Position numbers and translations under genes: made by a program. 64,000 nt of DNA. Origin: Tritrichomonas musculus. Its lineage: Eukaryota; Parabasalia; Tritrichomonadida; Tritrichomonadidae. Within the stretch, counting starts at the first letter, position 1; every line of letters starts with the position of its first letter. The notes under the pieces were generated by a model, which did no database searches, was not told the DNA's origin, and saw nothing but the letters and a program-made list of their open reading frames with translations. The stretch spans positions 434,001-498,000 of the forward strand of contig JAPFFF010000043.1 of the NCBI GenBank assembly GCA_039105265.1. Direction: 5' to 3'. Shown here one piece after another: positions 37,387 to 44,243 of the stretch.

Positions 37387-39252
37387 TTAAGAATCGTCAG
37401 AATCACTTTCTGTCTTCATATCTTCAGAATTATTGCTACTTTCACTTTCATCATCATCATCATCATTATCACTTTCATCACACTCGCTTGTATCAATTTG
37501 GCTGTCCACAATTCCATCTTTTTCAACATATTCTTCCTCTTCCTCTTCTTCTTCTTGAATATTTTCTTCATTTTCAGGCACTTTTTCATGAATTGCGTTT
37601 TCGTGTCTTTCTTGCCTATTTCTGAAAGCAACTTTTTCAAGGGCATCGAGTGTGAACTGAGGAAAACCTGGTGGATCATCTTTTATTAAATGGACGCAAT
37701 CAGAGAAGAATGCAGGTGTGCCAATCAATTCAGGAAAGAAGTGATATTTTTCTTTTTTTTCCATCAATAAAATTTTGTCACTTTTTTCGAATGAATCATT
37801 CTTTACTTTTTCAAGCAAACCGAAACTTTCATCGTCAAAACACAAAAACAAAGATGTTGCTCTATCAATCTGCATTCGTTCGTTATAATTGTTACCAACG
37901 AAATCGCCAAAGAGCTGGCTATAAACGTTCGACAAAATGATTTCGAGAAATGTCAAATTGAATTCAAATTCGGTCGGATATTTATTCATTATTTGTGCGA
38001 CCGCATCAATGAACATTGCGAAAATTGGACTAGCCAAATTGTAGTTACTTGTTCGAACATGCAAACAACGTGATGAAAATTTGTGGCCGATATCGATCCA
38101 ATCTTTTTGAATTAATTCAATGAACCCTTTCAAAGTTCGGAATTTTGAATCCATCATCAATTGAGAGAGCGAACAAATTTGAGAGGTTCTGTCCAAACCG
38201 TTAGAGCAATGGATCAAAACGGTGTTCAACATCAATGTCATCCTACTCACGACCAAACTTGCACCATTCAATATTTTCATCGTTATTTTTCCCCACTTTT
38301 TGAAGGCCGAACTTTTTCCATGAAAAATTTTTTTCACCATTGAAATATAACGGTCACGAACGTCTGAATAATCAGGAATTCCGAGGAAATGAAAATGAAC
38401 TTTAGAAATAGACATCTTAACGTCTTTAGTTGACTCATAACCTTTGCCAATCATTTGATTAGCGAACGCTTTTTTCTTAGGACGACAATCGATGATTGTC
38501 AGTCCGTGATTTCCACAAATAGCGGCCAAATACTGGTGCTCGTAGACGGACTTTGGCCTCTTCAACACGTTCACAGGCTGCGAACAACGTAAGAGCGCGA
38601 CTTTCTCTTCTTCATCTGATTTCAAAGGAACGTAAAAATACGTTATAAAAGGAAATCTTTTGTGTGTTCGACACAACGAACTTTCGTGTATGAAATAAGT
38701 CGGAATTTTCGATGGCATGAAGAAATAACGCGGATATGTTTTACAGTACTTGTTCCACATTAAATCATACTCACTTGGAATGTCGACTTTTTCAATCCAT
38801 GTCGGATTGGTTATCCACTTTTGTTCATCAAATTTCAATGAGTTTTTTTTCAGCATTTTAATTCTTTGTTTGAACTCGCGACGAATCCCTTCTGACTCAG
38901 GAAATTTGACATGCAAATGACATCCTGTTGAAAGGTGAAATTTGATCCCAAAATTGCGAACTTTTTCAATTCTGACGATCGTTTTCAATGGAATTACAAA
39001 ATTGCGAAAAAGTGACGCTTCTGAAAGAGGTGGATCGAAAATAAACCGAAGAGCCCAGTTGGTGGCATATATATGGAAGTCGTTGTGCGATGGAATGGTT
39101 AGTTTTGATGGAAAATAAAAATCTAGGATTTCATATTTTAATAATTGAAATAGGGATTTGAGCTGGGCTTCAGCTTCAGAATATGTTGGCATTTGCTCGC
39201 AGCCAGGAAAGTTGGGAAATGAATACAATTGATAATTGCTATCATTGGTCAT
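37387..39252 (-). CDS. Myotubularin-like phosphoinositide phosphatase
   Basis: 621 residues, intact. Residues about 35-135 fit a PH-GRAM domain. The myotubularin core follows: YPRYFFMPSKIP, IIDCRPKKKAFANQMIGKGY (254-272), and the P-loop HCSNGLDRT (348-356) with Cys349 and Arg355 preserved. The usual family motif is HCSDGWDRT, so Asp to Asn351 and Trp to Leu353 are changed. GHKFSSRC and FGDF, typical later motifs, are present. The C-terminal 75 residues are strongly acidic (Asp/Glu/Ser). Expected role: removal of the 3-phosphate from PI3P or PI(3,5)P2 on endosomal membranes. The changed P-loop could alter substrate handling. Confidence 0.88.
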   Translation of the reverse strand: MTNDSNYQLYSFPNFPGCEQMPTYSEAEAQLKSLFQLLKYEILDFYFPSKLTIPSHNDFHIYATNWALRFIFDPPLSEASLFRNFVIPLKTIVRIEKVRNFGIKFHLSTGCHLHVKFPESEGIRREFKQRIKMLKKNSLKFDEQKWITNPTWIEKVDIPSEYDLMWNKYCKTYPRYFFMPSKIPTYFIHESSLCRTHKRFPFITYFYVPLKSDEEEKVALLRCSQPVNVLKRPKSVYEHQYLAAICGNHGLTIIDCRPKKKAFANQMIGKGYESTKDVKMSISKVHFHFLGIPDYSDVRDRYISMVKKIFHGKSSAFKKWGKITMKILNGASLVVSRMTLMLNTVLIHCSNGLDRTSQICSLSQLMMDSKFRTLKGFIELIQKDWIDIGHKFSSRCLHVRTSNYNLASPIFAMFIDAVAQIMNKYPTEFEFNLTFLEIILSNVYSQLFGDFVGNNYNERMQIDRATSLFLCFDDESFGLLEKVKNDSFEKSDKILLMEKKEKYHFFPELIGTPAFFSDCVHLIKDDPPGFPQFTLDALEKVAFRNRQERHENAIHEKVPENEENIQEEEEEEEEYVEKDGIVDSQIDTSECDESDNDDDDDESESSNNSEDMKTESDSDDS

Positions 39253-39598: not shown

Positions 39599-41913
39599 AT
39601 GAGCATTGAAGAATTAACAGAGAAAATGAAAAGTGTTCAGAGTGCTCTTCTTGATTTTCTTGATGATGAGTGCAGTTCAGAAGAAAATTATGAAAATTTT
39701 GTTAATATTACCGCCAATCAAAAAGTAATTGAAGACCGGCATGAACTCAAATTACTACTACGACTAATTAATAACATTGGAAGCAACCATCGACGCAGCA
39801 GTAATTTTACAAATAAAATTGATCAAATTTTACATCATTTTAAAAAAGAAATCCAAAATTTTTTTTCAAATTCAGAAATTTTTGAAGTCTTCAAAGACAA
39901 CAAGCGAATCCTTCTATTTCTTATTGAAGAAAAAATGATGATAATTGATGAATATGTTGTTTCACGAATGACTAGTGATGAATATGTAAGAAAGAACTAT
40001 GACGAATATTTTGCTCCCGAAATCAAACCGTTTCTCACAAAAGAATTCATTCAAAAATTCAGAAGTGAAAATTCAAATTTAAGAAAAGAAGAATTCATTG
40101 ACAAAATCAAAAAAGAAGTTCCAGAAGAATTCTACATTAAAAGGAAAGAAGGAGAAAATGAGAACTATTTATGTGAACTGATTCGAACGAATCAAGTGAA
40201 AGAATTCGGTGTTTATGTCAACCGAAACAATATTTCACTTGAAAGTTATATTAAAAAATCAATCTTTGAAACAAATCCACTTTTGATTGATGAATCTAAG
40301 ATTCGATTGATTGAATATGCATCATTTTTTGGATCAATTGACATCGTCAGATACATGCAAATTAATGGTAACATTGAGCTGACATCATCGATGTGGATCT
40401 ATGCAATTCACAGTAGAAATGCAGAGCTGATCAGATATCTTGAAGACAGTCATGTTACACCACCAGAAGATGATTATGAAACAATTCTTAAAGAATCGAT
40501 TAAATGTCATCACAACGATGTTGCAAAGTACATCATTGACTACTTAATCAAAGAAGAAGATCTACAAAATGACATTGAAAGCAAATATCATAACAATCTT
40601 TATCGTTATGCAGTTGAATATTACAATTATTGCTTTTTCCCAACAAACATGAAATACAAAAACATGTTTTTTTATCTGTGTGAATTTGATTATTACACAC
40701 TTGTTAACCTTTATTTATCTGAAGGAAACATTGATATAAATGCAAAAATTAAAACAGCAAATATTTAAATGACATTTTGAAATCAAAAAAATATTCATGA
40801 AATTCAAATCTAACTTTTATTCATTCAATTTAAAATTTGAATGATTTATGGAATTTCATTCAAATTTTTAAATGACTCGGTTTTAAATCTTGCTGCAAGT
40901 AAAGGTCATTCAGACATTGTTGAATTATTATTAAGGCAAAAAGACATTGATGTCAACATCAAAGACATTTAAAATTAAAATCATTTATGATATTCGCAAA
41001 TCCAACTTTTTAAATGCTATTTAAATTTTGAATGATTTATGAAATTTAATTCTAACGTTTAATAAGACAGTCTTGATGAATGCTTTAAAAAATGGTTATG
41101 CAGAAGTTGTTGAATTATTAATGAAACATGAAGGCACTGATATTAACATCCAAGATATTTTAAATTTAAAAAATCTTTAATAGAATTCAAATTTAACTTT
41201 TTAAATTGGATTGAAATTTTGAATGATTTATGAAGTTTTGTTTGAGTTTTGAATAGGACTGCTTTGGTTTGTGCTGCAGAAAATGGTCAAGTAGGAATTG
41301 TTGAATTATTGTTGAAAAAGGAAGGTATTAATGTCAATATTGAAGACATTTGATATCATTAAATTTTTCATTATATTCAAATGTAACTTTTTAAATTGGA
41401 TTGAAAATTTGAATGATTTATAAAATTTAGCTTGAGTATTTAATAGGACAGCATTACTTGTTGCTTCAGAAAATGGTCATTCAGAAATTGTTAGATTATT
41501 ATTAACAAAAGAAGGTATTGATATTAATAATATAGAAATTTTTTTCAATAATATTAATAACATTTCAAATCTAAATTTTTTTTTCATTTTGTTGAAAATT
41601 TTTAATGATTTATGGCATTTAACTAGAGCTTTTAATAGGACAGCTTTGATTCGTGCTACGGAAAATGGCCATACAGAAGTTGTTAAATTATTATTGACAC
41701 GAAATGACATTGATATCAACACTGAAAGCATTTTATATCAATAGTATTCATAACATTCAAATCTACATTTTTTTAATTATGGAATTTTTAAGAGAAAGTG
41801 TTTACAAAGCTGCTATTGACTACGCAAGAGAAAAAAATTACCAAGAAATTTTTGACATTCTATCAAAAAGACAGATCAAAGCAAGTGAAGCAGGAGCAGG
41901 AGAAATAAAATGA
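39599..41913 (+). CDS. DUF3447-ankyrin protein with regularly spaced non-coding spacers
   Basis: Start chosen at MSIEELTEKMKSVQSALLDF (39599). Segment 1 to 40747 is a full DUF3447 module (IRTNQVKEFGVYVNRNNISL, SIFETNPLLI, IEYASFFGSIDIVRYM, AIHSRNAELIRYLE) ending NIDINAK. Ankyrin segments: 40874-40966 (DSVLNLAASKGHSDIVELLL), 41064-41156 (KTVLMNALKNGYAEVVELLM), 41255-41347 (RTALVCAAENGQVGIVELLL), 41445-41537 (RTALLVASENGHSEIVRLLL), 41637-41729 (RTALIRATENGHTEVVKLLL), and a terminal segment about 41779-41913 (YKAAIDYAREKNYQEIFDIL). Spacers are about 126, 97, 98, 97, 99 and 50 nt with stops in them, and share sequence. All ankyrin units are open and diverged from one another, which argues for function and hence for splicing. 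Every spacer but the first starts ATTT; three end AATAG|GAC-type. Confidence 0.55.
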
Positions 41914-42139: not shown

Positions 42140-44243
42140 ATGATTATAGCTGGAGGAGATAATACTTTCAATAGATTTGGATCGTGTATCTATGATAATA
42201 TTAGAAATCTTAGCATTTTTCCTCTATGATAATAGTAGTTAATCCTAATTCACTTTTATCGTATTCAATTTGTAACGAATGCTCAGTGTATGTTACTCGT
42301 AATGGATCATTGCTAGCAATTGGTTGCAATTATGATGGAAATATAAGCAATCTTCTACCAAGTACGGTCAACAATTTAACAAATTTTTCGATCAAAGATA
42401 GCAATGGCCGCAATCTATCTCCAATTTCAGCTGCCTGTTTTTATGGCGGCACAGTTTACCTTGTATCAAATAATTATACACCTCAATTATATATATCAGC
42501 AAATACAATAAACAACGGAAAATTAACGCTACTTAATATAGGCAATTTTCATCCAGTTTATCTTTATTCCGGACATTTTGCGGCAGCAGCTATTGGAATT
42601 AATGGCGATATCTTAAACATATATTATTCAAGTCTTATTGCTTCACCAAATGAACCACTTTCAACATCAAAACTTCCAGATGGAGAAAAAGCTGTTAGTA
42701 TTGTATGTGACACTAGTTACTTCTATGCTTTGAGTTCAAATGGCCGACTTTTCTGCGGATTTCCTAGTGATAACATCCATCCTATTGAATTTAAAGAAAT
42801 CGAAGAACTTATAGATGAAAAAGTCACATGTTTGCAGTTACTGAGGAAGGCCGTGTCTTTGTTTAAGGAACTAATTCTGATGGTCAGCTTGGTCTAGGAA
42901 AAGAAATAAAATACACAAATAACTTTACAGAAGTTTCATCTCTTAATAAATACAAAATTATTATTGCATCTGCTGGATGTAACCATTCTCTTTTTCTTAC
43001 AAATGATGGTAAAGTACTTGCATGCGGATCGAATAATAATAACCAACTTTTAATTCATAATTCATCTATTATTCAAAGTTATTATCCATTAGAAACAACA
43101 ATAACAAGTGGTGCTAAATTTTGCATTGCCGATGATTATTTCAGTGTTGTTTTTATAAATGCTGATATACCTTCTAATTCACCAAACAAAACAAATGGAA
43201 AAATTGTATCAAAGAAATCAAATAATTTCTTAAAAGACAAAAAAATATCTCAATTAAAAAATGAAAACAGTCAACTTATAAAAGAGAAAGAAGAAATTCA
43301 AAAAGAAAATCAATCTCTTAAAGAAAAAATAAAATTATTAGAATCCAAATCTAATAATGAATGTTCGTTAAGCCAAATCGAAGAAAAATCGATTACAATA
43401 CTCAGTATAAATATCATCGATTCTTTAAAGGACAAAATTCTTATTGGTAAAGGAGGTCAATCACATGTTTTCCGTGTCATTCGTGAACAATATTTAGCAC
43501 TGAAAGAACTTGAAATTACTGAATCAAATAATGAAAATGTTGAACGTTTACGTCGTCTTATTCAAGAATTTGATTTGATTAATCAACTTCATCATCGTAA
43601 CATAATAAAAACTTATGGATTTTGTTTCGGTGATAAAACTCATCCGCCATCAATTCTTCTTGAATTTTGTCCTCGTAGTCTTGATAAAGTTGTAAATCAA
43701 TTAAATAATAAAGAACGAATTACAACAATTATTGAAGTTTGTATTGCTATGAAAGAAATTCACAGCCATAATATGATTCATAGAGATTTAAAACCTGGAA
43801 ACATCCTTTATGGTGATGATGAGCATGTAAGAATAAGTGATTTTGGAATTGCTCGTTTAAATGATGATGAAAATGGTTTGGTCGATTCTAAAACAATCGG
43901 TGTTGGAACTTTAAAATTCATGGCTCCTGAAATTTTAAATGAAGATCCTCATTATAATGAAAAAGTTGATGTGTACTCTTTCGGTGTCGTTGTTTTCTTT
44001 ATATTAACAAATGGTCAGCTTCCAAAAATTAGTTTTGCTGATACTGTTCTTGGTAAAATGGCAGAAATTCCAACAAATATAAATACCATATCTAAAGATC
44101 TTATTCTTCGTTGTTGGTCAATAAAGCCAAATGATCGTCCTTCTTTTGATGAAATAATTGAATACATCAAGAAAAATAATTTCAATATTATTGATGGAAT
44201 TGAAAATGAAGTTCCTAAAATAAAAGAATTCGTTTCATTATAA
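42140..44243 (+). pseudogene. RCC1-kinase fusion gene with lesions in the RCC1 part
   Basis: The frame opens MIIAGGDNTFNRFG (42140), is lost at 42218, and resumes in 42226-42840 with RCC1-like repeats (SVYVTRNGSLLAIGCNYDGN). A further shift near 42835 leads to FAVTEEGRVFV, a TAA (42864-42866) where the repeat would have Trp or similar, then GTNSDGQLGLGKE. From 42867 to 44243 the frame is fully open: the last RCC1 repeats, a coiled coil (about 43240-43370) and a complete kinase domain with IGKGGQSHVF, LALKELE, HRDLKPGNIL, SDFGIARL, FMAPEIL and CWSIKPNDRPSF. The RCC1-coil-kinase order is a known trichomonad architecture. The kinase half retains all catalytic residues, so an internally initiated kinase is possible, but there is no early ATG in that frame. 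Confidence 0.65.

Follow-up and report, generated by a model that had tools for sequence, protein, structure and literature searches.

The gene at positions 39,599 to 41,913 of the analysed Tritrichomonas musculus DNA (the window, a stretch of 64,000 nucleotides) is one member of a large family in this species that is built from cassettes of one ankyrin unit plus one spacer. Comparison of the loci suggests that the spacers are probably introns with ends other than GT and AG, which would be removed from the RNA and would have spread together with the ankyrin exons as exon-plus-spacer cassettes. Such introns would have a nearly invariant ATT(T) at or beside their start and a nearly invariant (TT)AAT at or beside their end, and neither GT nor AG would be needed for their removal. 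Once they were removed, the N-terminal part, the ankyrin units and the C-terminal part would be read in one frame. The cassettes would multiply by tandem duplication and unequal exchange, and diversification of the contact residues would give a repertoire of binding proteins, some of them joined to a protein kinase.

The window gene consists of an N-terminal open reading frame (ORF), five ankyrin units of 33 codons and a C-terminal cap, with one spacer ahead of each unit and one ahead of the cap (Table 1). In the preliminary description of this DNA, the six spacers were estimated at about 50–126 nt; all six are present, and their measured lengths are 67–102 nt. The five open ankyrin units and the intact cap that were described there were recovered as such, the units matching Pfam Ank with E values of 1.6e-7 to 1.3e-5. 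The start of the gene had been called DUF3447, which is in need of correction: the name stems from UniRef labels of relatives, and the N-terminal ORF gives no Pfam DUF3447 match and only a weak one to Ank_2 (E 2.8e-4). The fixed codon position that had been claimed for the spacers holds on the upstream side, where all six are preceded by an ATT codon, and on the downstream side for five, which are followed by AAT, the exception being the spacer before the cap. AGG comes after three of the six, in agreement with the three AATAGG ends noticed before. A sequence block common to the spacers was also found again: TTTGAATGATTTAT occurs exactly in four of them and with one mismatch in a fifth. A sixth match, also with one mismatch, is found at another place and on the opposite strand, which makes six in total against 1.13 expected, a number reached by 1 of 100 shuffled sequences. 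A myotubularin-like phosphatase ORF adjoins the gene (37387–39252, minus strand, E 2.7e-77), and a weak RCC1-like ORF lies downstream of it (42226–42897, E 0.006–0.008).

Table 1 Parts of the ankyrin gene in the window (positions counted from the first base of the window)
Feature	Position	Strand	Remarks
N-terminal ORF, 389 aa plus stop	39599–40768	+	weak ankyrin similarity only; 107 matches in own genome
Spacer 1, 102 nt, from ORF stop to unit 1	40769–40870	+	same place in relatives; true 5' boundary may be slightly upstream of 40769
Ankyrin unit 1, 33 codons	40871–40969	+	open; Pfam Ank; first Asn codon at 40871
Spacer 2, 91 nt	40970–41060	+	
Ankyrin unit 2, 33 codons	41061–41159	+	open; Pfam Ank; first Asn codon at 41061
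Spacer 3, 92 nt	41160–41251	+	
Ankyrin unit 3, 33 codons	41252–41350	+	open; Pfam Ank; first Asn codon at 41252
Spacer 4, 91 nt	41351–41441	+	
Ankyrin unit 4, 33 codons	41442–41540	+	open; Pfam Ank; first Asn codon at 41442
Spacer 5, 93 nt	41541–41633	+	
Ankyrin unit 5, 33 codons	41634–41732	+	open; Pfam Ank; first Asn codon at 41634
Spacer 6, 67 nt, ahead of cap	41733–41799	+	
C-terminal ankyrin cap, VYKAAIDYAREKNYQEIFDIL... to stop	41800–41913	+	open

Coding pieces and spacers across the family

A DNA search of the genome with the window array gave 78 matching stretches from the 40 that were scored of 382 candidates, many of them covering the whole array at about 75% identity, and 107 matches, of which 98 are free of stop codons, were obtained when the N-terminal ORF served as a protein query. 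When overlaps were dropped, 43 non-overlapping loci were obtained, 24 merged from 30 of the DNA search and 19 of 30 from the protein search. They contain 297 ankyrin units (266 different sequences; six are N-cap units) and 253 measured spacers. A genome-wide search for similar spacers, of the kind that the preliminary description had proposed, showed that the 19-base spacer core CAAATCTAACTTTTTTCAT is present in 389 copies (175 forward, 214 reverse; none for the backward control), a count that diverged spacers fall outside. The unit step (ankyrin unit plus spacer) is mostly 185–192 nt, and a single non-standard gap, of 1,949 nt, occurs between consecutive units (in L059). On contig C15, at 3259142–3280249, four copies of the N-terminal ORF (L059–L062) are spaced by exactly 6,650 bases and have identical scores; this tandem is a recent gene amplification.

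The coding pieces and the spacers differ sharply in their state of preservation. Stop codons are lacking in 296 of the 297 ankyrin units, as found with a scan in which stops were penalised mildly and by which badly broken units would be missed. The spacers (63–114 nt) fall in all three length classes modulo 3 (166, 54 and 33; n = 253), and in one gene (L037) the unit step varies between 186 and 187 nt. In 24 loci, a stop is present in 147 of 148 spacers when read in the frame of the upstream unit and in 44 of 148 in that of the downstream unit, and inspection of diverged spacers revealed stops and indels throughout. Among 1,095 distinct differences from the consensus in the unit framework, 46.5 stop-making ones would be expected, and 11 of that single-base kind were seen, a real stop being present in just one unit. 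Between diverged loci the framework dN/dS is 0.46 (874 pairs), and within these loci it is 0.45 (116 pairs); C20-type arrays have an internal value of 0.52 (875 pairs), and comparison of the one group with the other gives 0.38 (280 sampled pairs). The pairs are not independent of one another. The units thus mainly show constraint, where the preliminary description had named neutral substitution as the sign of a decaying array. Open and constrained flanks around an unconstrained insert are what an intron would produce; counter-signs are the raw framework differences within arrays, which are equal at codon positions 1–2 and 3 (0.039 vs 0.040), and the part of the kinase ORFs ahead of the first Met, discussed below.

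The main rival to the intron reading is that the arrays are silent or decaying, with the N-terminal ORF alone being made and the units forming a gene-conversion store or the remains of continuous genes. It would agree with the eight NCBI proteins of relatives (371–399 aa) that end at or near the first spacer, with the equal differences at positions 1–2 and 3, and with the near-identical and shuffled units that are found in many arrays, as after recent amplification. We nevertheless consider it rather unlikely, in view of the single interrupted unit, the complete lack of stops in 1188 contact codons and the framework dN/dS values, which indicate protein-level constraint that a pseudogene array should not have. 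Furthermore, 33 of the 43 loci retain the cap motif, some loci ending short of where the cap would come, and six intact kinases are located at the far array end without a nearby start codon; a silent store would not need an N-cap, a C-cap and a kinase in place.

No protein with joined units was recognised among the database matches listed. The best 120 of 803 matches to the N-terminal ORF include none longer than 431 aa, and the ankyrin unit of the family is absent from 244 fetched proteins, the one motif match (P0121) being another ankyrin protein. A protein search with the array region, of a type that needs shared words, returned four ankyrin proteins that are apparently unrelated (the fourth was judged by its bacterial name), and for the kinase no ankyrin family appears in the domain lists of the best 120 of 3,151 matches. 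In the genome itself, no fully open array occurs among 150 matches listed, the longest open frame being 506.

The spacers might also be kept in the mRNA and be passed by the ribosome through frameshifting, hopping or stop read-through, in which case they would be partly translated. This would be in line with the 104 of 148 spacers that contain no stop when read in the downstream unit's frame, with the first spacer of L010, which is in frame with the N-terminal ORF (giving an ORF of 473 aa), and with the stop-free words inside the spacers that are described below. However, the step in frame varies between genes and within one gene, so that no single shift works: the three length classes given above are incompatible with a constant relation between the frames of the units. 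A frameshift of constant size (−1 or +1) at each unit, which suited the units of 188 nt, is ruled out by those of 185, 186, 187 and 189 nt, also within one gene. The stops in the upstream frame of nearly every spacer, the stops and indels that are seen by inspection all along the diverged ones, and the consideration that several bypass events per message would leave little product make this explanation improbable.

That homopolymer errors in sequencing or assembly have caused false frame breaks is hardly credible, even though many indels are located in A and T runs. The assembly was made from PacBio HiFi reads, as given in the accessible text of PMC11978803, and the N-terminal ORF has A/T runs too, yet most of its matches carry no stop. 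Each spacer, moreover, is a complete additional block, about 90 nt long, at a fixed position. The same source mentions that 2,500 genes were annotated with introns and that RNA-seq data from the same isolate, deposited as PRJNA841657, were used for the gene models (PMC11978803).

Contact codons and ankyrin-kinase genes

Within the units, positions 2, 7, 10 and 11 are occupied by many different residues, and the neighbouring positions are nearly fixed. According to the known ankyrin layout, these are the positions in the hairpin and inner helix that bind the partner. Their codons differ by 0.43 per site per pair, vs about 0.04 for the remaining sites of the unit (391 pairs, from 28 arrays with at least two units, using 188-nt units only and excluding pairs that differ at more than 47 sites), and have a dN/dS of 2.0–3.8. 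From the column composition, 115.8 stops would be expected in the 1188 contact codons, none of which is a stop. Since the contact residues are diversified, the family resembles a binding-protein repertoire in which some members carry a protein kinase, and binding is its likely function. Repertoires of repeat-protein binders are known from the lamprey VLRs, the plant LRR receptor kinases and the designed ankyrin repeat proteins, with which the T. musculus family has in common a fixed framework, hypervariable contacts and, in some cases, the coupling to a kinase. It differs from them in being a natural ankyrin array of a protist in which each repeat has its own exon-plus-spacer cassette. T. musculus is a gut commensal that shapes mouse immunity, and if the proposed reading is correct, this commensal possesses a natural hypervariable ankyrin repertoire.

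A second class of genes is formed by six of the 43 loci (L011, L015, L017, L018, L028 and L031), in which no N-terminal ORF precedes the array. Their first spacer directly follows an ATG plus N-cap ankyrin (SNKEFLEASKNG...DINIQDI or a variant of it), and the last one is followed by a C-cap, a coiled coil and a protein kinase. The two loci that were tested match Pkinase with E values of 8.9e-56 (L015) and 1.9e-39 (L031), and HRD, DFG and APE motifs occur in all six. The protein from cap to kinase of L015 matches five loci of the genome with 94–100% identity over the full query. The kinase ORF is open for 83–160 codons ahead of its first Met (residue 84, 127 or 161). Since there is no Met over this distance, the best explanation for the cap and the coil is that they are reached by translation through the array, and this open frame provides the strongest argument that the spacers would be absent from the translated message. 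In four loci, the whole ORF has a dN/dS of 0.42–0.70. The part before the first Met shows 4–9 nonsynonymous and 0–1 synonymous changes per pair (six pairs from four loci), so that here it is the open frame alone that argues for translation. The overall layout is like that of a receptor kinase with an ankyrin repertoire. If the spacers are indeed removed, complete receptor and kinase genes can be overlooked when Tritrichomonas genes are modelled.

Spacer edges and known intron systems

In the diverged loci, the last codon of a unit is ATT in 56 of 56 cases and the first is AAT in 52 of 53, whereas two other codons are less fixed (Asn 29 is AAC in 45 of 54, Ile 30 is ATT in 18 of 36). As proof of splice signals, these frozen edge codons are weakened by two inner codons that are nearly as fixed (Val 17, GTT in 47 of 48; Asp 27, GAT in 46 of 47), and a role of the edges as signals is therefore only suggested. 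The majority sequence has GACATTTTAAATCAAAAACATT at the 5' edge and TTATGGAATTTAACTCGAACATTTAAT at the 3' edge. The cut points are ambiguous by up to about 6 bases at either end, with ATT, TTT and AAT being assignable to either side. Removal would leave seven residues in the hairpin if ATT, TTT and AAT are kept and four if the cuts are made at the outer edges; by eye, uninterrupted T. musculus ankyrins commonly have seven residues between the hairpin Asn and Thr. Cutting at the direct repeat ACATTT, which is found at both spacer ends, was rejected on inspection because it gives the wrong frame.

Trichomonads are described as intron-poor in the accessible parts of PMC12316389 and, for T. foetus, of PMC12428144. 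The former lists 63 introns of T. vaginalis, three of which sit in ankyrin genes; all have GT and AG ends, an extended 5' motif and a branch site ACTAA that is fused to the 3' motif (PMC12316389). The spacers resemble these introns in being short, non-coding pieces between coding ones. The T. vaginalis introns that are described are single, however, whereas the spacers are many per gene and mostly lack GT or AG: in 24 loci, GT is absent anywhere in 108 of 148 spacers and AG is also absent in 108, each occurring in 40. As a class, the spacers do not have the ends or the motifs of canonical trichomonad GT-AG introns. In the 193-Mb genome, the joined T. vaginalis pattern GTATGT ... ACTAACACACAG has no exact match, and neither has TACTAACACACAG, for which the backward control gave two. 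Since the T. vaginalis motifs are without a match in the genome, this yardstick may not apply to T. musculus, and splice signals may differ between Trichomonas and Tritrichomonas. A candidate U6 snRNA with the usual ACAGAGA box (L070, 1501–1605, minus strand; 42.5 bits, just below the family cut-off of 44) suggests that a normal spliceosome may be present. A search for U1 gave no match in T. musculus, and control genomes were also silent in that search. The preliminary description had offered two possibilities, introns without a GT 5' end or an array that spreads as cassettes, and both are compatible with the comparative evidence; the ambiguous splice points and the unmatched T. vaginalis yardstick qualify this agreement. 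We infer the removal of the spacers from RNA, and the machinery for it, from the sequence comparisons described here.

Nonconventional introns of euglenids have variable ends that are not GT and AG and that are brought together by RNA structure, according to the accessible text of PMC4770533 and PMC6221363. The spacers share with them the non-GT/AG ends and differ in that such a structure found no support here. Compared with shuffled sequences, the mean folding z was −0.24 for 37 diverged spacers and −0.75 for 40 others, vs −0.92 for 60 ankyrin units, and one L010 spacer with its flanks gave −0.85. The own ends of a spacer pair no better than swapped ends, and a fraction of 0.375 of 200 shuffles was at least as good (47 spacers), so a hairpin or end-pairing in the spacer RNA found no support in these tests. 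ARAGORN detected no tRNA genes in L010, and cmscan of L010, L009, L040 and L037 against Rfam gave one weak snoRNA-like match, in L010 and outside the array. Non-coding stretches that interrupt an ORF and whose two ends are similar in sequence are also known from the mitochondrial bypassing elements (byps) and from hopping in T4 gene 60. The spacers are similar in these two respects, but they are nuclear, occur several per gene and, judged by eye, have no constant matching take-off and landing codon. If hundreds of spacers are cut out without the GT/AG signals, they would represent a new class of introns in a deep eukaryotic branch. No earlier description was found in the accessible parts of the open-access literature on trichomonad ankyrin families, introns and splicing and on the T. 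musculus genome.

Triplet words and inserts in unrelated ankyrin genes

The spacers contain three modules of about 25 nt, each with a triplet in the context YAT-xxx-(A/G)TT. Per site and pair, the difference is 0.26 for triplet 1, 0.57 for triplet 2, 0.05 for triplet 3 and 0.029 for the rest of the spacer; the hypervariable triplets correspond to columns 114–116 and 139–141 of the unit alignment (43 loci). The first two are free of stops, with 0 of 233 and 0 of 247 against 16.3 and 36.0 expected from the columns, and in the diverged loci 0 of 83 triplets is a stop at a background rate of 0.082 (P about 8e-4). Words that recur cannot be treated as independent observations, which weakens this avoidance as proof of translation; when each word is counted a single time per site and locus, P becomes 0.005 for the diverged loci. 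Codon-like words are not predicted by plain introns. The modules resemble the 3' edge TTTAAT-xxx-ACG, in which xxx is contact codon 2, and they may be copies of the acceptor plus this codon.

An extended form of the intron reading, which we regard as possible but doubtful, is that (A/G)TTT...AT introns occur at the hairpin of many ankyrin genes and that cassettes build hypervariable binders and receptor-like kinases. The spacer words would then be copies of acceptor plus contact codon that either serve as alternative acceptors or are varied by the targeted process that also acts on the ankyrin contact codons. The intron reading of the spacers itself is supported by inserts in unrelated ankyrin genes. 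Of the eight Ank_2 loci with the best scores, five were seen to contain a total of 13 inserts (two each in L001 and L002, four each in L003 and L007, and one in L006), which had been chosen before the inserts were known. They are short and T-rich, add stops, frame breaks or extra length, and are all located at the hairpin between ankyrin repeats. Twelve of the 13 begin with (A/G)TTT and 11 end with AT just before the codon that precedes Thr; in uninterrupted junctions (L001–L008 and L069) the same codon ends with AT in 9 of 44. Since the sequence is T-rich and the insert ends were set manually, these figures are a lead rather than a motif test. One or two of the inserts also fit GT-AG introns, one of 25 nt in L001 and perhaps one of 22 nt in L003, the latter with a hairpin that is one residue shorter.
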